Shown: one piece after another, positions 1,867 to 40,934 of the stretch
Layout of the letters: every line of letters begins with the position of its first letter
Position numbering within the stretch: position 1 is the stretch's first letter
Notes under the pieces: model-generated
What the model was told of the DNA's origin: nothing
The model's database searches: none
Seen by the model: only the letters and a program-made list of their open reading frames with translations
Made by a program: the position numbers and the translations under genes
Source of the DNA: Lactobacillus sp. ESL0684
GTDB lineage: Bacteria > Bacillota > Bacilli > Lactobacillales > Lactobacillaceae
Assembly: GCF_029392675.1 (NCBI RefSeq)
Contig: NZ_CP113941.1
Span: 1,104,001-1,168,000, forward strand
Length of the DNA stretch: 64,000 bases
Reading direction: 5' to 3'

Positions 1867-2606
1867 GCCTTCTTCACTTCACTTTTCTTAACCCAGCCGC
1901 GTGCACCACCAGAAGTCAGTGACACATGGATTGGGTATTTATGCCCGTTGGCAATATTGGTTACCTTACGCTTAGCATTTTTCTCGTATAAGCCTTTACC
2001 ATGACCGTCAGAATCAGCATGCAATCGCCCATTGACAATTACTGTTGAGCCTATACCAATCTTTTTAGCAGGACTAGTACGCTTCTTTTTATGCGAAGAC
2101 TTTTTGCTTTTTTTCTTCTTTTTCTTTTTGACTTTGGTATAGCTGGCTTTACGATATTCTTTTAGCTCAAGCGTATAAGCATATTCGCCGTCATACCCAT
2201 CTTTAAAGCCTACTTCAAAACTGCCAATGGTCATTGTCTTACTAAGAGTAGTTGATGACACAACTAGCTGCAGATGACCCCGATCTTTTTCAATTTTCTT
2301 GAGCCACTTTATGTAATAGTCTGGCTCGTGAAAGTCGTCTGTTGTGACATAATGCTCCTCCTCTTTAGGAAAGGTACTTTCAATTTGTAAAGTGCTAAGT
2401 TTCAAAAAGCCTTGTTGATTAATTTCGCCTAGATTGACTACTGTCTGCGACTTATCATCAGATTCATACTTGACCATTAAATCAGCCGGATTAACCGGTA
2501 ATTCAATGGTTTTATTGTCTTTATAATTCGTTAAATAAATCGTAAATTGGTCTTCTTCTAATTCATCTTTAGCTTTCTTTTTCACTTTACTGCTAATACT
2601 AGTCAT
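1863..2606 (-). CDS. XkdP/YqbP-like tail protein with C-terminal SH3-like domain
   Basis: 247 aa. Residues 20-155 look like the XkdP core that connects tube and hub. A lysine/serine-rich linker (about 156-183) follows, then a C-terminal SH3-like domain (VIVNGRLHADSDGHGKGLY onward). Many relatives carry LysM at this position; here a wall-binding SH3-like domain takes its place. It lies directly downstream of the tape measure gene in transcription order, and its stop is coupled to XkdQ. A role in peptidoglycan contact is inferred. Confidence 0.7.
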   Translation of the reverse strand: MTSISSKVKKKAKDELEEDQFTIYLTNYKDNKTIELPVNPADLMVKYESDDKSQTVVNLGEINQQGFLKLSTLQIESTFPKEEEHYVTTDDFHEPDYYIKWLKKIEKDRGHLQLVVSSTTLSKTMTIGSFEVGFKDGYDGEYAYTLELKEYRKASYTKVKKKKKKKSKKSSHKKKRTSPAKKIGIGSTVIVNGRLHADSDGHGKGLYEKNAKRKVTNIANGHKYPIHVSLTSGGARGWVKKSEVKKA

Positions 2607-2618
2607 TAATACACCTCC

Positions 2619-5600
2619 TTAAAGTTTCCGATTATCAATCTCAACCATTTTATTTTCAATTGCAGCAAGTACATCTTCGGCTGTTTGTTCAGGGTTATGT
2701 GAGCCCGTAATTTGAATTGCACCTTTTTCAATCGTAAGCACACGGCTATTGTCACTGCTACTATTCTGGGTTGAAATATTCTGACTACGCGCAAGGCTAT
2801 CAGCTGTAATGGCACCTAAGCCTTTATAGTCGAGCCCAACTGAACCACTTGCACCACTATTAGCAGCGTTAATTAAGTTACCACCAGCAGTGGATACTAG
2901 ACCTACCGTGTCCATCATACCCATTGCCATACCTTGACCGATAAAACCACCAACCTCAGCAAAAAGCTTAGATGGCGAGTGAATTTTAGCTTTGGCTCGA
3001 GCAGCCCGGTTAGCTTGAGCAACTAATGCATCAGCTGCAGCTGCAACAGCACCAATTTGCGATCGCATACCTGCCGCTAGTCCCGCACCAATCATAGAAC
3101 CTGCGCTACGCATTGGACCTACACCAGTTCGAGCAATTGCTGCGGCACGACTTACTGCTTGCTGAACAGCAGCGCCCATTTTAGTACCACCAGCTCTTAC
3201 TGCTGCAACAGCCTGATTCATTCCCGATCTAATTGCAGACACTACGCCTGCCATCGATGGCTTACCAACTTTAGGTGCGGCTATCTTGGCCAATTTAGGC
3301 ATTTTAGGTGTAGGAATTGTTGGACGTGCTACTTTGACATGTAATGTCATAAGTTTTGGTCGCTTAGGTTGCGGTATGGTTGGTCTAGCTACTTTAACGT
3401 GTAATGGCTTGATTTTAGGTCGTTTTGGCTGTGGTATTTTAGGACGTGCTACTTTAACCTTTAGTGGCTTCACTTTAGAACTTTTTGGAGTTGGTACTTT
3501 AGGCGTTGCAACTTTCATTTTCATTGGCTTGGTACCAAATTTAGCCTGAGCTTTTTGCTGGGTTTCTGTTAGTGATGACGTATCTGCTTTAAATTTAGTT
3601 TTAACTGGTTTAGCACCAAATTTAGCCGCCATTCTTTGTTGCGTCTGATCAACTGATGAAGTGTCTGCTTTGACTTTCATCTTTGCTGGAACTTTCATTT
3701 TAGCAAGTGGGTTAGCGTCGAATTCATAACCAACTTTAACTTTTGCTTTACCTAGAGCCTGCTTATTACCAGCAATATTGTTCATGCTCATAACATTAGC
3801 ATTGCTTTGAGCAATATTTGGCGCTTTTATATTATCAATATTAGCTTTAGCATTTTTAGCCTTACTACTTATTTGGTCAAAAACACTATTAATGGTAGCA
3901 GTTGCACCGTTATTAAATACGTCTCCGATACCAGCAAAGGATCTCTTCATGTTGTCAACGTCAGATTGCACATCTTTCATGGCATTCTTGGCATTGCTAA
4001 AACTCCAATTCCGAGTAACTAAGTCTCTAATTGCTTGTAGTGCAACATTACAGCCATCAGCAAACATTCTTAACATCGAAATTATTCCAGCTATAGCATC
4101 TATAGCCATTGTAATAGCGTCAACCAATAATCCAAAAAGCTGAACAGCCTTCATAATAGCTCCAGCTACGCCACTTGCGATTATTTTACCGAGTCCAGAT
4201 AACATGTTACCGATTGGCGACAGCGCATTGCCTAGATTGCCTAATGCCTGCATAAATGGTGCAAAAATATTTCCAATATTATTAAAAATACCAGAAATGA
4301 AATTTCTAAAACCTAATAGATTATTTTGCCACGCATAAACCGCAGATATTATCACAACAGTGACGGCAGCAAGTGCTATTGCGATTGTACCAGCTATCGG
4401 TGCCATTGCTGCTGTTAGTGCTGTTCCCATAGTCTGCATACCTTCCAGCATCGCTTTTAAACCATTAAGAGCGCCGCTTATTGACATAATTGTATTAGCA
4501 ATTCCTCCAAGTACTTTAAATCCAATTAAAGCTGCAACAAGTGCCTTGATTGCACTAGCAACATTATTTATTTGACCCGAATCCATTTGACCAATTTTAC
4601 TTAGTCCAGCAACTACACCAGCAAGTACTAAGCCTTTGACGCCGCCTTTTAAGACAATAAAAGCTGCTCCTAATGCTTTTAGAGTACTTGGATCCATCTG
4701 TCCTATCGCTTGTGCAATTGCACTAATCGCATTAGCTGCACCTCTGACTGCACCACCAGCAAAACTGCCAAGCTGGGTAAAGAAATTGTTACCACCGCCT
4801 GCTGAAGCTTTGTTCATGACATTACCGATTGAATCTCCAAGTTCATGCAACATATCATTAACAGCCGATAAAGCTCCAGTTGACTTGAAGCCACTAAAAA
4901 CGTCAGTTGAAATTGATTTAACCTTAACGATGATTTGTGAAAATGCATCAGCGATTTTAGGACCAGATGCCTTTATTTTGTTTGTTAGTTGATTCAGAGT
5001 ATCGGTTAAACCAGCATCTACCAACGGCTTAAGTATGCCAGTTGCCAGCGCATTCTTTATACCGGTTTGTAAATTAGCAAAGCTTGTTTTTATTCCCTTT
5101 GTGGAATCAGCTGCAATTTGGGTAAGAGATTTTAATCCACCCCCTCCATGTTTATCTAAATCAATCAACTGATCTTCAAAACTTTTAACGGATATTTTTC
5201 CTTGAGATAGACCTTCTTTTAATGCTCCAGTAGTTATACTCATTTTTTTAGCTACGGCTTCAAGAGCTGGTCCCATATTGCTATTTATCATACTGTTCCA
5301 GGTTGTTCCATCAATTTTGCCATTAGCTAAAGATTGAGAGAGTTGTAACACAGCATTATTAACCATGGCTGAAGTTCCACCAAATCCTAGAATTCCGTCA
5401 TTCATTGCCTTAAATATTTGCGTCGATTTATCTAAATTACCAGTCGATGCTGCCAATAGCTGTGTATTGCGCAGTGCAGAATCAATAGGAGTAGGTAACC
5501 CATTAACAGCTTGATCTAAACTTGAAATAGCTGATTGGGTACTCTTAGCAGAAAAACCCATGTTCTGAAATGACCTGCTGGCATTGTCAATAGTATCTAA

Positions 5601-30936: not shown

Positions 30937-31632
30937 TTGTCAACAATAATTGCCATAATGTCAGCTATATTCACTGGTGGTGGATTCTTAATTGCATTTT
31001 TAAGCTATATACTCAAAAAGCCAAAAATTGATTGTAAGTTAGATGACCAATTTGATTCATACTGGATTCATGGAAAAGATTTGAAGCTTCTCAATTCAGA
31101 TAAAAGCCAAAAATCAGTGATTTGTGATTACGATGTAGCTGTATTATCACTACTAATAATTAATAAAAGATCTACACCAATATCTATAATTGGAATATAC
31201 AAATTTGGCGAAGAAGATGATTTCTTGGATGAAAACATACATTTTAATAATCCAGTTCATACATTTCGACTCTTACACTCACAAATCTTAAATAGATCAG
31301 TAAAAAGTCATAAAGTAAAATTTCCACATAGACTCAACAGCTACGATGTTGTCAGAACCTCAGTATCATTTCTTGTTGGCGATTCAAATATTTATTACTC
31401 AGATCGAAAGTCTAATAATAAAAACTTAAAGATAAAATTTGCAATAAAAACTCCATATCGAACATTTTATTTTTTTAAAACAATCAATTATTTTGATGAA
31501 TACATGAAAAATAAAAAATTAGGATCAATCGATAATCCAGCATTATATACGGAAGTTAAAAACATTAAGAAAGAAATTGATCATGATTATTCCAAAAAGA
31601 ATAAAGCCAATAATGGTAGTGAAAAGAATTAA
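30937..31632 (+). CDS. Membrane-anchored protein, unknown (cassette B)
   Basis: 231 aa from a TTG at 30937, chosen because AAAGGAG lies eight bases upstream. Residues 1-27 are a membrane segment (IMSAIFTGGGFLIAFLSYIL). The rest is a beta-rich cytoplasmic or outer domain (ISIIGIYKFGEEDDFLDENI; VRTSVSFLVGDSNIYYSD). The C-terminus is Lys/Asn-rich. No family is recognised. Orientation and location suggest a moron co-expressed with DUF2188. Confidence 0.65.
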   Translation: MSTIIAIMSAIFTGGGFLIAFLSYILKKPKIDCKLDDQFDSYWIHGKDLKLLNSDKSQKSVICDYDVAVLSLLIINKRSTPISIIGIYKFGEEDDFLDENIHFNNPVHTFRLLHSQILNRSVKSHKVKFPHRLNSYDVVRTSVSFLVGDSNIYYSDRKSNNKNLKIKFAIKTPYRTFYFFKTINYFDEYMKNKKLGSIDNPALYTEVKNIKKEIDHDYSKKNKANNGSEKN

Positions 31633-31836
31633 TATTTTAAAAACATAGTTTTGTACTTTTCTTTGCTTTCTTAATTTATCCTGAATAAATACGTGCTTAA
31701 ACCTATGGTGCCCAAAAACTTCATCAAGTGTTAAATTAGGGTTCATTTCTTTTAAAATTTCAGTCCCTCCTTCAACAATTTTATATGTCCTATCCCTTAC
31801 AGGAGGGGATATTTTTTTGTTTTCTTTTTTAATCAT
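31543..31836 (-). CDS. Small protein with C-terminal membrane segment
   Basis: 97 aa. A strong GAGAGGAGAAGG precedes the ATG at 31836. The N-terminal half is charged (NLTLDEVFGHHRFKHVFI) and the last 30 residues are a membrane helix (ILILFTTIIGFILFGIIMI). It overlaps the convergent gene by 90 bases, so one of the two ends could be misjudged. Confidence 0.55.
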   Translation of the reverse strand: MIKKENKKISPPVRDRTYKIVEGGTEILKEMNPNLTLDEVFGHHRFKHVFIQDKLRKQRKVQNYVFKILILFTTIIGFILFGIIMINFFLNVFNFRI

Positions 31837-32609: not shown

Positions 32610-32825
32610 CTAATATCTGTAATACAAGCCTAATTTTTCAGCAGCCTGTTTGCGAATCTCTTTAGAACGCGGACTCATATCACCATGAAGCGCACGATTA
32701 AGCTGCTGCGGTCCAGTTCCAATTGCTTTTGCTAACTCATATTGCTTCATATGATGCTTTTTTAAAGCAACAGTAAATTTAATCTCCATATCTTCAACGA
32801 TATTTGATAATTCTTCTTCAACCAT
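32610..32825 (-). CDS. Cro-like XRE regulator
   Basis: 71 aa with a helix-turn-helix HMKQYELAKAIGTGPQQLNR. The ATG follows AAAGGAAG. It lies next to the Rha gene, on the lytic side. It probably regulates early promoters; it is distinct from the two LDELR-type XRE paralogues. Confidence 0.75.
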   Translation of the reverse strand: MVEEELSNIVEDMEIKFTVALKKHHMKQYELAKAIGTGPQQLNRALHGDMSPRSKEIRKQAAEKLGLYYRY

Positions 32826-32850
32826 GATTTCACTTCCTTTCGGTTATTTC

Positions 32851-32880
32851 TTGACTACCAATCATATTTTTAGTTATAAT
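32851..32880 (+). promoter_or_regulatory. Promoter of long RNA 1
   Basis: TTGACT, 18-bp spacer, TATAAT on the plus strand, immediately upstream of a region without ORFs and opposite to the Cro-like gene. Confidence 0.78.
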
Positions 32881-32886
32881 AAAAGC

Positions 32887-33332
32887 GCTTCAACATATGA
32901 CACATAAAGATGTTGGCATATTCCGTAAGGAGGTGATAACATCTTGTCACAATTTTTGGAGTAGTGTGTATTTCTGTAGGTTGAAAAATATGAGCTAATA
33001 AAAAAACTGTTACTGATATGATCAATGGTGACTGGTTATTGCCTGACTGATTTGATTTAGCATTTCTAGTAATTAGTGAAAGTAAATTAAGAGTAACTTT
33101 GCCTATATCTATCAGCTGCAAATACCTAATTGAAGTTTAGCGACTGATTTTGAGTACTTGTAACTGTTGATACAGGAAAACCCTTAGGAACTTTTAAAGT
33201 TAATTTCCATATAAGTAAATCGATGCTGATGCACCGCTGGAACAATAAGCAGTCAAATGATGCGGGCTTTGCAACCTAGAAATTTTTAAAAATATTGAAA
33301 ATTTGTCCCTTAGCAAGGGGATATTTTTTTGC
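32887..33332 (+). ncRNA. Candidate long noncoding RNA 1, about 445 nt
   Basis: It runs from the promoter at 32851-32880 to a terminator (TCCCTT AGC AAGGGG then TATTTTTTT, 33307-33331). No plausible plus-strand ORF exists. Stable hairpins are visible: AAGATGTT with AACATCTT (32908-32915 with 32937-32944), and CCGC/GCGG near 33227-33272 enclosing CTG/CAG. It is opposite to the early operon, in a gap between the AntA-type gene and the Cro-like gene. Existence as a transcript is inferred. Confidence 0.6.
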
Positions 33333-33347
33333 ACTTTTTATCCTCCT

Positions 33348-33371
33348 TTCAGTATTTTTTTAATCAAGTTC
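33348..33371. repeat. Partial copy (24 bp) of the 48-bp repeat
   Basis: GTATTTTTTTAATCAAGTTC then TTGA, identical to the core of the copies at 33779 and 34912. It places an A/T-rich stretch upstream of the -35 of RNA 2. Confidence 0.75.
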
Positions 33372-33400
33372 TTGATGAAACACACTAAAATTGATAATAT
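33372..33400 (+). promoter_or_regulatory. Promoter of long RNA 2
   Basis: TTGATG, 17-bp spacer, TAATAT. The preceding sequence is the partial 48-bp repeat, which may act as an UP element. Confidence 0.65.
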
Positions 33401-33406
33401 AAAAAC

Positions 33407-33753
33407 AGGTTTTGAAAGGAGTTGTTCACTTTGAAAGACTTTTTGAGAGACCTGTTTTCTCGCGGATAACTGTTTAACCGTTAAGCTGGTGAGGACTTTA
33501 GCGTTAGTGTCTACGTTAAGACGCACAACCTTGTGGGAGATAAATTTATCTGTCGTGTAAATTTAACTCGATAGGATTTATTATTCGACGTAAAGGTAAA
33601 TCCTTTAAAGCAAGACTACACATTAAAGTTAAGCAGCTGAACTAGGTACAGGCTTGGGCGACGATACCATCAAGTCCTAGTTGGTGTTTCAGGACGCACT
33701 TGAGAATAAAACAATTTCGCAGTCATAGCTTTCCTGAGAGCTATGATTTTTTT
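33407..33753 (+). ncRNA. Candidate structured RNA 2, about 347 nt
   Basis: It starts with AAAACAGGT, which pairs perfectly with ACCTGTTTT at 33454-33462 and closes a 5' domain. Further stems are AGATAAATTTATCT (a palindrome), GGATTTA/TAAATCC, and AACTAGG/CCTAGTT enclosing CTTG/CAAG. It ends in a strong terminator, TCATAGCT/AGCTATGA plus seven T. Only a 12-codon ORF with a TTG start is present. Stops interrupt every longer frame. The many long-range stems suggest an RNA gene. Confidence 0.62.
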
Positions 33754-33778
33754 AATGCATTATATTTCCTTCTTTCTC

Positions 33779-33826
33779 AATGCAATAAACGGTATTTTTT
33801 TAATCAAGTTCTTGACTTATTTAGAC
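33779..33826. repeat. 48-bp direct repeat, copy A
   Basis: Identical over 48 bp to 34912-34959. It covers the end of the AntA-type gene and the adjoining noncoding DNA, and contains TTGAC TTATTTAGAC. Confidence 0.9.
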
Positions 33827-34546
33827 CAGTTCCATTTGCTCACTACCCAATAGTTTGTTAATGAAATACTTCTGACCCTCACCAGTTACCATCGTTGTGT
33901 AAGTTACATAAGTGCTGCCGTCAGGATTGCTTGAAGCCTTTTCTCTGACTTTGAACCAACCATGATCAATTGCCCATTGAGTTGGCGTATTCCATAATCT
34001 GCCACGCTTTTTGATTAGATAACCATGCTCTCTCAACCAAGCAAACAATCTGTTCTGACCAATATTCACGCCATTACCACGTAAAATTTTTGCTAACTGT
34101 CCAATTAAAATAGTTGCTTTACTGGTAGATACTGCGTCTGCAAAAATTGCCTTTGGCTTCATCTTTTCGTTTTCAATTTTGAGATGATTGTTTTCGTCTT
34201 GCAGAATGGCGTAGCCTCGTTTGACAATTTCGGCTGGATCGTTCCATTTCTTTTCAACCTCAATTAGATATTTGCGATATTGCTTACCTTTCTCAGTTCG
34301 ACTTAATAGGCAAAGTTGTTTTGCCATGTCGATTGTTAAAGCGTAGTCTAAAAGTGGCTTAGTACCACCGTTTGGCATGTCCGTAACTGTAGTTACAGTC
34401 GTAAAATCTACGTCTTCTTCGAAGTCTTTAAAATTCTGTTCAACCCATTTACTAAATCTTGTAGTTAAACCTAATCCTTTGTGCAAGTCCCTGGCACTAA
34501 CCAATTGTTGGTCACCTTTGACCTGTACTTTTATTAATTCCTGCAT
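33821..34546 (-). CDS. AntA/AntB-type antirepressor with KilAC domain
   Basis: 241 aa. Residues 10-95 are the AntA domain (VSARDLHKGLGLTTRFSKWV, LTIDMAKQLCLLSRTEKGKQ). Residues 140-235 are the KilAC/ANT part. The gene is the first of the early (rightward-to-left) operon, after the operator region. It probably inactivates the CI-like repressor on induction. Confidence 0.88.
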   Translation of the reverse strand: MQELIKVQVKGDQQLVSARDLHKGLGLTTRFSKWVEQNFKDFEEDVDFTTVTTVTDMPNGGTKPLLDYALTIDMAKQLCLLSRTEKGKQYRKYLIEVEKKWNDPAEIVKRGYAILQDENNHLKIENEKMKPKAIFADAVSTSKATILIGQLAKILRGNGVNIGQNRLFAWLREHGYLIKKRGRLWNTPTQWAIDHGWFKVREKASSNPDGSTYVTYTTMVTGEGQKYFINKLLGSEQMELV

Positions 34547-34911: not shown

Positions 34912-34959
34912 AATGCAATAAACGGTATTTTTTTAATCAAGTTCTTGACTTATTTAGAC
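34912..34959. repeat. 48-bp direct repeat, copy B
   Basis: Perfect copy of 33779-33826. In this copy the repeat supplies the -35 of the plus-strand promoter at 34945-34972. Confidence 0.9.
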
Positions 34960-34972
34960 AATCGGCTATACT
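34945..34972 (+). promoter_or_regulatory. Plus-strand promoter with operator-like half site
   Basis: TTGACT, 16-bp spacer, TATACT. The spacer contains TTTAGACAAT, the inverse of ATTGTCTAAA found at 35112-35121. Downstream there is only an 18-codon ORF (34979) with no good ribosome site. Confidence 0.6.
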
Positions 34973-35078
34973 AAGGCCATGACAAATAAGCAAATAAACG
35001 TTGCTATATCAATCTTCACTCGCCAAAGTAACTGAATTGATAGGCTGGTTTTTTCTTGCTCAATTACTTGATGAATTA

Positions 35079-35151: not shown

Positions 35152-35502
35152 ATGACACTGTTTGATAACTTGAAAATTATGGCAAAAAATCATGGAATGA
35201 GTTTGCTACAAATTAACGAAAAAGCTGGTTTAGGTAAAAATGCAATTTACAAATGGAAAACTCAGCAGCCCTCTACAGAAAATCTGCAGAAGGTTGCCAG
35301 AGTGCTTCATACTTCCACCGACTACCTGCTTGGTAATACAGATGATCCCTCACCTGTGTCGAATAAGGACGAAAAGCCATTCCTTGATATCGGGGATGAT
35401 GAAAGAATTTATTCTTATCGTGGAAAGCCGGTACCCAAAGAATACTTAGATGTTATCCGTGGTTTGATGGATTCTGACATCAGAAAAGGTAAAGGTAGAT
35501 AA
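35152..35502 (+). CDS. CI-like phage repressor (XRE)
   Basis: 116 aa. Residues 5-62 form the helix-turn-helix (MSLLQINEKAGLGKNAIYKW, LHTSTDYLLGNTDDP). The short C-terminal part lacks a peptidase domain, so induction likely needs the ImmA/IrrE-like protease encoded downstream or an antirepressor. It is the first gene of the plus-strand lysogeny operon. Confidence 0.88.
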   Translation: MTLFDNLKIMAKNHGMSLLQINEKAGLGKNAIYKWKTQQPSTENLQKVARVLHTSTDYLLGNTDDPSPVSNKDEKPFLDIGDDERIYSYRGKPVPKEYLDVIRGLMDSDIRKGKGR

Positions 35503-38592: not shown

Positions 38593-38690
38593 ATAGATCA
38601 AGTTCAGAGGGCCCTAGGAGTTAGGTGCTGGACTAACAGAACCTCACATCTGTATTATTTTTACAGAATGTGGGGTTTTTGTTTTTTTGG
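38593..38690 (+). ncRNA. Structured RNA upstream of the abi gene (abiF-type)
   Basis: About 98 nt between a strong promoter and a strong terminator. GTTC (38602) can pair with GAAC (38639) around an inner GTTAG/CTAAC hairpin. The 3' hairpin CCTCACAT-CTGTA pairs with TACAG-AA-TGTGGGG and is followed by TTTTTGTTTTTTT, ending two bases before the GGAGG of the abi gene. A conserved RNA is known to accompany abiF genes, and such RNAs act as antitoxins for HEPN Abi proteins related to Cas13 ancestors. Identity with that family should be tested by covariance search. Confidence 0.72.
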
Positions 38691-38701
38691 AGGCTTTTTT
38701 A

Positions 38702-39724
38702 ATGACTGACAATCCTAAACCGTTTACTACTCATAATCAACAACTAAAAATTCTCCGCAGCAGAGGTTTGATTGTCAAGCCTAGTGCGAATAGAGCTTTA
38801 GAAGAACATGGCTATTACTCTATTATCAATGGCTATAAGAAATTGTTTTTAGAAAAAGATTCAAATGGACGTCCTATCGATCCTGAAAGATATATCACCG
38901 GTTCAACTTTTGAAGAAATTAAAAGTTTATATGATTTTGATAGAGAGCTTCGCCAGATCTTATATGGTCCACTAATGGAATACGAAAGTAATCTTGGCGC
39001 AGAGTTGTCTTACAAATTTTCCAAACGTTATACTGAACCACATTCATATCTTGCTATGAACAACTTTTCAAGAAATGACGCCGATGCTTTTAATGTTGTT
39101 AAAACAATCAATTCTCTATCTTATGAGATACAAAAAAATACTAAGGGTGATAATGCAATTAGACATTACATAAACAAGTACGGTTATGTTCCATTATGGG
39201 TACTAGTAAATTTTATGACATTTGGAGAATTAAATTACTTTTATCAAAATTGTAGTGATAAACCTGATAGAGAGCATCATTTAATTGGATTAAAAACAGA
39301 AATTGCTAAAGACTTTGCATTAAAATATAAAAGAAATTATAAGCAAAACATACAAGTGCATCCATTATCAATAGAATCAATTAATACTTTAGTAAATCAT
39401 TTTAGAAATTCAGTTGCACATAGTGAAATAACTTATAGGAAAATTGTTAAGAAAGGAGTTAATTTTTCTAGTATTTTAAGTGATTTACAAATACCACGTA
39501 CTCTCAGACAGACAATTAGTCAGTCTAATCGTAATAGTAGCCAATGTGGAGTATTCGAATTAATAGTTTCACTCAAATTGGTTTTAAATAAAAGGCAGTA
39601 TACCGTGTTAAAGAAAAATATTCAAAACTTAATTTCTAAATATCAAAATGAATTTCATTCGGTTAGCTTTACTGCTATTTTAAATGATATGCATTTCCCT
39701 AGAAACTATGACGAATTTTTATAA
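38702..39724 (+). CDS. abiF: Abi_2 (AbiD/F) HEPN protein
   Basis: 340 aa from the ATG at 38702; GGAGG lies eight bases upstream. The Abi_2 pattern shows as HGYYSIINGYKKLFL, SLYDFDRELRQILYGPLMEY and YVPLWVLVNFMTFGELNYFY. The HEPN RNase motif is FRNSVAH (Arg235 to His240). It is predicted to cleave RNA on phage infection. It lies in the lysogeny module, so it would be made in the lysogen and would exclude other phages. abiD is an equally fair symbol. Confidence 0.88.
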   Translation: MTDNPKPFTTHNQQLKILRSRGLIVKPSANRALEEHGYYSIINGYKKLFLEKDSNGRPIDPERYITGSTFEEIKSLYDFDRELRQILYGPLMEYESNLGAELSYKFSKRYTEPHSYLAMNNFSRNDADAFNVVKTINSLSYEIQKNTKGDNAIRHYINKYGYVPLWVLVNFMTFGELNYFYQNCSDKPDREHHLIGLKTEIAKDFALKYKRNYKQNIQVHPLSIESINTLVNHFRNSVAHSEITYRKIVKKGVNFSSILSDLQIPRTLRQTISQSNRNSSQCGVFELIVSLKLVLNKRQYTVLKKNIQNLISKYQNEFHSVSFTAILNDMHFPRNYDEFL

Positions 39725-39839: not shown

Positions 39840-40934
39840 ATGCCAGTAAGAAAACGTGGCAAATCATGGTCAGCTAGAATAAACTGGCGTGATGCTAATG
39901 GTAAGCTTCATCAAATGGAAAAAGGCGGCTTTAAAACTAAAGTTGAAGCTGAACAATATGTAGTTAAACAGCAATACATGCATACACAAGGTGTAGACAT
40001 TGAAGAAAATCCAGTCTTTGCTGATTACTTTCATGAATGGTGGATTACCTTTAAAAAACCGCATATCCGACATGAAACGCAAAAACGTTATATCACTAAT
40101 GACAAAATTATTCACGACTACTTTAAAGATACTAGAATTAAAAAAATCAAACGAATTCATTGGCAGCAATTTATCAATGATGTTTGTAAGACACATTCAA
40201 CCACAACAGTAAGGCTACTCAATCGCCAATTTAGAGCCTGTGTGAAGAATGCAATTGCAGATGGCATAATTACCCTAGACTTCACTCAAGGCGTCAATAT
40301 CAATGGAAATGATGCAAATACGCGCAAACCTATCTTCTTATCCTATGCCGAGGCGCAAAAGCTATTAAAAACTGCGCTAGATGACAGAGAACCTGCTGTC
40401 CCCTCCACTTACATTATCATTGCAATTATTCTAACTGGTGCCCGTATTGGCGAAATTAGCGGACTAAAGTGGCACAACCTTAATATCAAAAAACATACTA
40501 TTGCGATTCATCATTCTTACAACAGTGATATTAAAGAACTAGGGCCAACTAAAAACACCTCTTCTTATCGCACAATTCGAATTAACGCCAAACTGATTGA
40601 ATTGCTAAAAGAAATCAAAACTGACGATCAGGACGGTTATATCTTTAAAGAAAAAGATACTGACCTGCCACCTGCTAATCGAACGGTTAATAGTAAATTG
40701 CAAGTAATTATGAAACACGCCAATTTAACTAAGAAAGATTTTACAATTCATAGTTTACGTCATGTGCATGTGGCTATACTTCATCACAAAAATGTTGATT
40801 GGATGGCTATCTCAAAAAGACTAGGTCACAAAAATTTATCAATGACATTAAATGTGTATGCTTATTACATTGATGAGGATAAAAGAAAAAGTGACAAAGA
40901 AATAGAAAAAAAGCTAGACGATTTATTCATCTAA
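39840..40934 (+). CDS. int: Tyrosine integrase
   Basis: 364 aa. The N-terminal arm-binding domain (AP2-like: RKRGKSWSARINWRDANGK) is followed by a SAM-like core domain and the catalytic domain: Arg202 in LTGARIGEI, Lys238, HSLR (His304, Arg307), His330 in LGHKN, Tyr340. It inserts and excises the prophage. It ends 83 bases from the tRNA-Gln 3' end. Confidence 0.96.
   Translation: MPVRKRGKSWSARINWRDANGKLHQMEKGGFKTKVEAEQYVVKQQYMHTQGVDIEENPVFADYFHEWWITFKKPHIRHETQKRYITNDKIIHDYFKDTRIKKIKRIHWQQFINDVCKTHSTTTVRLLNRQFRACVKNAIADGIITLDFTQGVNINGNDANTRKPIFLSYAEAQKLLKTALDDREPAVPSTYIIIAIILTGARIGEISGLKWHNLNIKKHTIAIHHSYNSDIKELGPTKNTSSYRTIRINAKLIELLKEIKTDDQDGYIFKEKDTDLPPANRTVNSKLQVIMKHANLTKKDFTIHSLRHVHVAILHHKNVDWMAISKRLGHKNLSMTLNVYAYYIDEDKRKSDKEIEKKLDDLFI

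Follow-up and report, generated by a model that had tools for sequence, protein, structure and literature searches.

A previously unnamed class of structured RNAs in the lysogeny modules of Lactobacillales phages

The window, i.e. the whole stretch of 64 kb that was analysed, covers positions 1104001-1168000 of a 1.89-Mb Lactobacillus genome and contains a prophage whose early genes are read leftward according to the ORF list and Pfam. Among them is a gene-free gap of 1 kb (32826-33820), bordered on the left by a Cro-like HTH gene (32610..32825, - strand; PF01381) and on the right by the gene of an AntA antirepressor with a KilAC domain (33821..34546, - strand; PF08346 and PF03374). A CI-like repressor gene, assigned by PF01381 and position, lies at 35152..35502 on the + strand, downstream of it a protein with the HEIGH metalloprotease motif is encoded, and the integrase is found at 39840-40934. 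Between the repressor operon and the integrase we noticed by eye a protein resembling the Abi_2 (AbiD/AbiF) family (38687-39724, + strand), in which RNSVAH, also seen by eye, is a possible HEPN motif. A conserved hairpin at about 34985-35060, within what is presumably the leader of the repressor mRNA, has the loop core ACUCGCCAAAG; it was also seen in L024, L026, L027, L153, L116, L082 and L112, and in other phages the loop reads UUCCCCAAC or UUUGGCGAC. Possibly this hairpin is a second structured element at the switch.

A preliminary description had placed two promoter/terminator units in the gap, facing opposite to the early genes exactly between the AntA and the Cro-like gene. Both units are present, and orientation and position are correct by the ORF list and Pfam. 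The predicted promoter of the first, TTGACT-18-TATAAT (32851..32880, + strand), was recovered by a consensus scan with 11 of 12 matches. The promoter proposed for the second, TTGATG-17-TAATAT (33372..33400, + strand), exists as well, yet its consensus is weak with 8 of 12 matches, below the threshold of the scan, and its -35 element overlaps a 24-bp repeat. Terminators of both units were scanned at 33304-33323 and 33721-33748. In the region as a whole terminator-like sites were enriched (10 found vs 2.8 ± 1.6 expected), and the 13 promoter-like sites were not above chance with 13.6 expected. The gap has no convincing ORF, as had been said, but two tiny frames, each preceded by a strong ribosome binding site (RBS), at 32944-32964 and 33431-33469, had been overlooked.

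The second unit, RNA2 (about 33402..33753, + strand), is a real structured RNA with homologues in three other species. A search across the genus yielded a relative of 77% identity in genome G007, and a search across the family added two in the Levilactobacillus genomes G299 and G440 (L. brevis CD0817 and L. fujinensis), whose flanking DNA is for the most part too divergent for alignment. The four RNA2 sequences can be aligned end to end. RNAalifold reported 27 pairs with compensatory change, and the count including a pseudoknot gave 28 of 89 pairs; the covariation was 0.468 as compared to 0.275 ± 0.024 in shuffled alignments, and 0.122 at most when the pairing partners were slid. RNA2 also folds significantly better than its shuffles with a z of -3.8. 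Two stems singled out earlier both exist: AAAACAGGT/ACCTGTTTT has the counterpart ATAGGCT/AGCCTGT in the Levilactobacillus homologues, and AACTAGG/CCTAGTT is a covarying helix (helix 10 of the RNA2 alignment).

The 5' end of RNA2 carries the RBS AAAGGAG (33415..33421) and a mini-ORF with a TTG start (33431..33469) that reads MKDFLRDLFSRG up to its stop codon, at a position homologous to the frames of the family described below. The end of this mini-ORF is at the same time the 5' strand of a closing helix, P1 (33457..33462), which pairs with 33701..33706; two of the six pairs are double-changed (helix 2). Further downstream the RNA2 alignment and the family comparison delimit a hairpin with a conserved loop, TGG-GCGACGATA-CCA (33655..33669). 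The strand TCAGGA (33689..33694) forms a pseudoknot with TCCTGA (33732-33737; helix 13) in the loop of the terminator hairpin (33721..33753), which was identified by the scan and the covariation count. All of these elements lie on the + strand.

The first unit, RNA1 (about 32887..33330, + strand), has an RBS, AAGGAGGTGAT (32927..32937), that aligns with the family 5' end, and by frame comparison a mini-ORF with a TTG start (32944..32964) that reads MSQFLE and stops; its terminator extends from 33304 to 33330 on the same strand. A near-twin of this terminator, also on the + strand, is located at 31791-31818 within the start of the leftward ORF 31543-31836. The genus search found a homologue of RNA1 with 80% identity in genome G055, sited between Cro and the repressor. 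RNA1 folds weakly better than its shuffles (z -1.6), and by eye a GAACAATA hairpin and a possible P1, TAGGTTG/CAACCTA, can be drawn. The covariance model of the family 3' domain did not match RNA1, and a terminator-loop pseudoknot was not found (score 4.0). Therefore we class RNA1 as a diverged and probable member on its 5' end, which a held-out model recognised, and its position.

RNA1 and the Levilactobacillus RNA2 have an odd 5' end in common, in which an RBS is followed by TTGTCACAATTTTTG. Blastn with RNA1 plus RNA2, or with the RNA of L. fujinensis, gave no match in collections of phages and plasmids; only a motif scan with this 5' element opened up the family: in IMG/VR it found, next to unrelated sequence, prophages with the same element before a different structured RNA. 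Blastn with two of the RNAs found in this way matched 17 and 19 Streptococcus phages, 315.6 and P9 among them, and two more scans returned 36 and 43 contigs, part of them unrelated. The hosts of the prophages matched by blastn include S. pyogenes, S. agalactiae, S. suis, S. anginosus, S. gallolyticus and S. mitis. Nearly all streptococcal records that we inspected have the RNA in an unannotated gap on the strand of the repressor, adjoining a Cro-like or small early gene and mostly between Cro and the repressor; in MissC and Javan74 the downstream gene order differs. In L151-L155 leftward genes surround the RNA, with HTH/Cro-like genes towards the repressor and, at L153 and L155, a gene of antirepressor type on the opposite side. 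The window RNAs share with those of other loci the location in the lysogeny module and on the repressor strand.

Held-out tests were made with two models. R1, a covariance model restricted to the 3' domain, was run over 321 and 197 genomes and recovered additional members, both from other genera of Lactobacillaceae and from four more Lactobacillales families (f3, f4, f5 and f9); relatives occur in prophages of at least five families of this order. Seven of the eight new R1 matches with E < 1e-3 have an upstream mini-ORF, which the model does not see, the exception being L158. The five matches at E 0.025-0.05 (L150, L162-L165) all lacked it and were taken as chance. Sampled prevalence is low, as only 7 of the 321 Lactobacillaceae genomes matched with E up to 0.05. 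The 3' model scored 67 bits on the window RNA2, whose sequence is part of that model. R2, a sequence model of the 5' end, was built without any member of the window lineage. In the 64-kb window it gave exactly two matches, RNA1 with E=3e-4 and RNA2 with E=3.8e-4 (33415-33450), and nothing else up to E=10; both have the RBS and a mini-ORF with TTTTTG. R2 also recovered the four relatives. A 53-nt match in G381 (L028), shortly before the gene of an ABC transporter of the bacteriocin type, is probably due to chance.

No Rfam 15 family, ROOL and GOLLD included, matched any tested RNA of the family at the gathering threshold, and for the window RNAs nothing credible emerged at E up to 10; the RNAs had not been recognised at first sight either. 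The sole new Rfam match in the last set was the Spy779816 sRNA (RF02589) at 4188-4273 on the - strand of L085, near the integrase and on the strand opposite to it. Searches of the open-access literature found no description of the RNA family. We assign RNA2, and probably RNA1, to a hitherto unnamed class of structured RNAs in the lysogeny modules of temperate Lactobacillales phages. The novelty is in the class and rests on Rfam and the open-access literature; ornate orphan RNAs borne by phages, ROOL and GOLLD, are already known as such.

Members of the family are about 260-450 nt in size and consist of a constant frame and, inside it, a hypervariable core that is exchangeable and differs greatly in length and sequence. 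The 5' element comprises a strong RBS and an 11-codon frame, M-(A/S/T)-x-(F/L)-L-(K/R/N)-x-T-V-S-Q, with TTG or ATG as start and TAA, TAG or TGA as stop, nearly always at codon 12; in the window lineage the mini-ORF is shorter or divergent (MSQFLE and MKDFLRDLFSRG). P1, the 5' strand of which is the end of the mini-ORF, was tested formally in RNA2 and recognised by eye in the streptococcal and RNA1 types. A hairpin with a conserved loop of the GRCGAUA type is a family element, and AAUUUC(C)G is the next one. In nearly every type the loop of the terminator hairpin pairs with a strand 32-35 nt upstream, e.g. CUGCUAU/AUAGCAG, CUGCUUC/GAAGCAG, CUCCUAC/GUAGGAG, CCGUUAU/AUAACGG, CUAGUAC/GUACUAG, GUCCGAU/AUCGGAC, GUCCGAG/CUCGGAC and UCAGGA/UCCUGA. 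With terminators hand-picked from the printed sequence, the mean score of this pairing was 6.05 for a loop and its own strand vs 4.16 for swapped ones, a difference reached in 0 of 300 permutations. Across 15 3' domains 99.5% of the cells were paired, 19 of 27 pairs were double-changed and the covariation was 0.576 vs 0.242 ± 0.019 in shuffled alignments. RNA2 itself possesses the conserved loop hairpin and the terminator-loop pseudoknot UCAGGA/UCCUGA (helices 10, 11, 13 and 14). The claim of structured RNA genes with promoters and terminators of their own is thus borne out: other prophages conserve them and the covariation is strong, quite the reverse of the absent covariation and poor conservation that had been named beforehand as refuting it.

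In L085 and L089 the terminator of the RNA itself marks its end, and behind it remains the 3' end of another cassette, a trace of cassette replacement. The 3' ends of the streptococcal RNAs (TTGAGCAGAATAATTTCCG; L081-L090, e.g. L085 at 2060 and 2503) repeat, nearly unchanged and in inverted orientation, the spacer of a putative early promoter that lies beside the RNA promoter; this copy may be an operator or an evolutionary scar. The inverted copy (TTGAGCAGAATAA..ATTTCC), recognised by eye in the streptococcal RNAs, was not seen in Lactobacillus.

The 24-bp repeat, an operator-like sequence with the palindrome TCAAGTTCTTGA, is common to the promoter of RNA2 and the promoter region of the repressor. 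Its copies on the + strand are located at 33352..33375, overlapping the -35 element of RNA2, at 33792..33815 without a clear promoter, and at 34926..34948, overlapping the -35 element of a promoter before the repressor gene (34945-34972). The exact 23-mer core occurred three times in the window and not once in shuffles. TATTTTTTTAATCAAGTTCTTGA is present in three copies at 33353, 33793 and 34926, the second of which has the look of a scar left by recombination between switch modules. A 28-bp repeat takes the same part at the RNA and repressor promoters of L. fujinensis. Most other loci tested had no such long shared repeat, and some have palindromes near the RNA promoter. Therefore we only infer, for this lineage, that the phage repressor may control the RNA.

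The position of the RNAs opposite the early genes and adjoining Cro and the antirepressor, in the window and at other loci, had suggested antisense or trans-acting riboregulators of the lytic switch that would work on the mRNAs of Cro, the antirepressor or the repressor, like c4 of P1 or Sar of P22. The operator-like repeat in common with the repressor promoter is in line with this proposal as well. Yet complementarity to the prophage did not exceed the shuffled level: the longest stretches in RNA1 and RNA2 were 16 and 14 nt, and shuffles reached 16 and 14. The 16-nt match, between the terminator tail of RNA1 and 31804-31819, arises because the two terminators are similar. Pairing with the own repressor or Cro leader was no better than with swapped ones. 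A pairing of an RNA loop with the hairpin of the repressor leader (UCGCC or UCCCC) looked promising in a few loci and was dropped: the GGGGNCGAUA loop is retained in L112 and L116 although their leader motif differs, and own pairs did no better than swapped ones. Moreover, in streptococcal phages the RNA is situated beyond the putative early promoter.

The type of the RNA is also uncoupled from the types of repressor and Cro. The core is replaced between similar flanks, with identities upstream, in the core and downstream of 98%, 33% and 100% in L085/L089, 97%, 40% and 81% in L082/L125, and 86%, 45% and 96% in L132/L137. P9, phiGBSVK-E2 and Javan486 have repressors of 98-99% identity and three different RNA types. 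Conversely, Javan485 and Javan486, both recorded with S. pyogenes HSC5 as host, have 0 differences in 521 nt of the RNA region and repressors of 44% identity. The core swaps and the HSC5 pair imply that the core is not matched to the own repressor or Cro and that identical RNAs coexist in one strain, which argues against a cis or antisense regulator of the switch and against an incompatibility determinant. We consider a riboregulator of the own switch unlikely, and RNA genes with roles of their own, the other proposal of the preliminary description, fit better.

Might the mini-peptide be the product, with the structured part controlling or stabilising its messenger? Frame, start and stop are conserved across families with the motif M-x-x-F-L-x-x-T-V-x-x. 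On the other hand, the peptides of the Lactobacillus types differ strongly (MSQFLE, MKDFLRDLFSRG and MSQFLFCLYFLQILV), TTTTTG is fixed at the level of nucleotides, and conservation and covariation are mostly found 3' of the frame. We hold a peptide product to be distinctly improbable. As for a type I toxin-antitoxin RNA, i.e. the messenger of a small hydrophobic toxin paired with an antisense RNA, the peptides of the family have 6-15 amino acids and are mostly polar.

An RNA of superinfection immunity or incompatibility, its immunity type set by the variable core, would agree with the exchange of the hypervariable core among phages with the same flanks; the two HSC5 prophages with identical RNA regions make this very unlikely. 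The arrangement of mini-ORF, P1 and terminator resembles that of an attenuator, and in streptococcal phages the repressor is next on the strand, so that translation of the mini-ORF could set the read-through into the repressor gene. Such a leader is even harder to credit: the repressor of the window has its own promoter past the terminator, genes on the opposite strand separate RNA and repressor in L151-L155, and the terminator loop belongs to the conserved fold. Finally, that there is no RNA gene, just conserved DNA such as operators or recombination joints that folds by chance, would suit the direct repeats flanking RNA2 and its weak promoter, but has next to no chance of being correct, given that almost all helices show compensatory changes among genera as well as families, and given the held-out recovery by the 3' and 5' models.

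The most likely remaining reading is that of a trans-acting cargo RNA with a target outside of the own switch, and its best own evidence for such a target is negative, namely the uncoupling. In this model the RNA, a constant frame with a swappable core, would be made under the control of the phage repressor. Ribosomes on the mini-ORF would hold P1 open. By geometry a ribosome at the end of the mini-ORF would sit on the 5' strand of P1, so that translation could gate folding. Once P1 and the pseudoknot close, a compact and stable RNA particle may result, the variable core of which would act in trans on something beyond the own switch, in the host or in competing phages. The RNA would then be the counterpart of a lysogenic-conversion gene instead of a switch regulator. 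We give this combination of repressor control, translation-gated folding and cargo function about an even chance. More tentatively, and with considerable doubt, the RNAs may be ribosome-licensed effectors: translation of the mini-ORF would gate the knotted RNA, cores would swap by recombination in the constant ends, and interchangeable RNA-only effectors would be directed against host functions or rival phages.

Small cargo may have a docking place here. In several streptococcal phages unannotated Fst-like small hydrophobic proteins, similar to type I toxins and with their own promoter and terminator, share the gap between Cro and the repressor (by eye; L085 at about 2610-2840, L088 at about 2540-3000), and L088 (Javan576) has two copies. 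It is this sharing that suggests the gap to be such a place.

A lead as to expression is given by a tiling array of S. pyogenes MGAS2221, which reported the prophage signals SR1173300 (50 nt), SR1175500-1175800 and SR1175900-1176100 on one strand and does not describe a structured family (PMC2765633). With one assumed offset to Javan514, a prophage of MGAS5005, the three signals fall on an intergenic gap of 141 nt, the family RNA (about 2842-3197 of L166) and an Fst-like unit (about 3302-3509). Sizes, strand and spacing of SR1175500 and SR1175900 would fit the family RNA and the Fst-like unit under the assumed genome offset, and we regard this as a lead only. Differential RNA-seq of strain S119 listed 19 prophage ncRNAs and described a family upstream of the integrase (PMC6431027), which appears to differ from the one reported here.

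Taken together, prophages of S. pyogenes, S. agalactiae, S. suis, S. equi and lactic acid bacteria carry at their decision locus an elaborate class of RNA that has escaped annotation. Concrete predictions on the coupling of translation and RNA folding follow from the mini-ORF, the pseudoknot of the terminator and the exchangeable core, and the class may extend the gifts of prophages to their hosts by a cargo made of RNA only.

Several known systems invite comparison. AbiF RNA (RF03085) is likewise a prophage ncRNA with its own fold, and the window has the Abi_2-like gene at 38687-39724 noticed by eye. However, RF03085 did not match in the window, including beside this gene, so this identity was rejected, and the annotated neighbours of the streptococcal RNAs do not comprise such a protein. 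c4 of P1, the CI RNA of P4 and Sar of P22 are antisense immunity RNAs of phages. They too are situated at immunity loci with adjoining antirepressor genes; the present RNAs differ in being much larger, in the mini-ORF and the knotted terminator, in a type uncoupled from the repressor and in complementarity at the level of chance. SgrS/SgrT and RNAIII/delta-haemolysin are dual-function small RNAs, in which a regulatory RNA holds a small reading frame. In the family described here the frame of about 11 codons is at the extreme 5' end with its last codons in the closing helix, and the RNA is not known to have a target-pairing region. ROOL and GOLLD are alike in habitat and ornate folding: these orphan RNAs are large and structured and are encoded by phages as well as prophages, also in lactic acid bacteria (PMC12286853). 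Those RNAs measure about 600-800 nt as opposed to 260-450 nt, are unlike in sequence and lie near tRNA islands, while the present family resides beside the Cro/repressor switch and is set apart by its mini-ORF, terminator-loop pseudoknot and hypervariable core.
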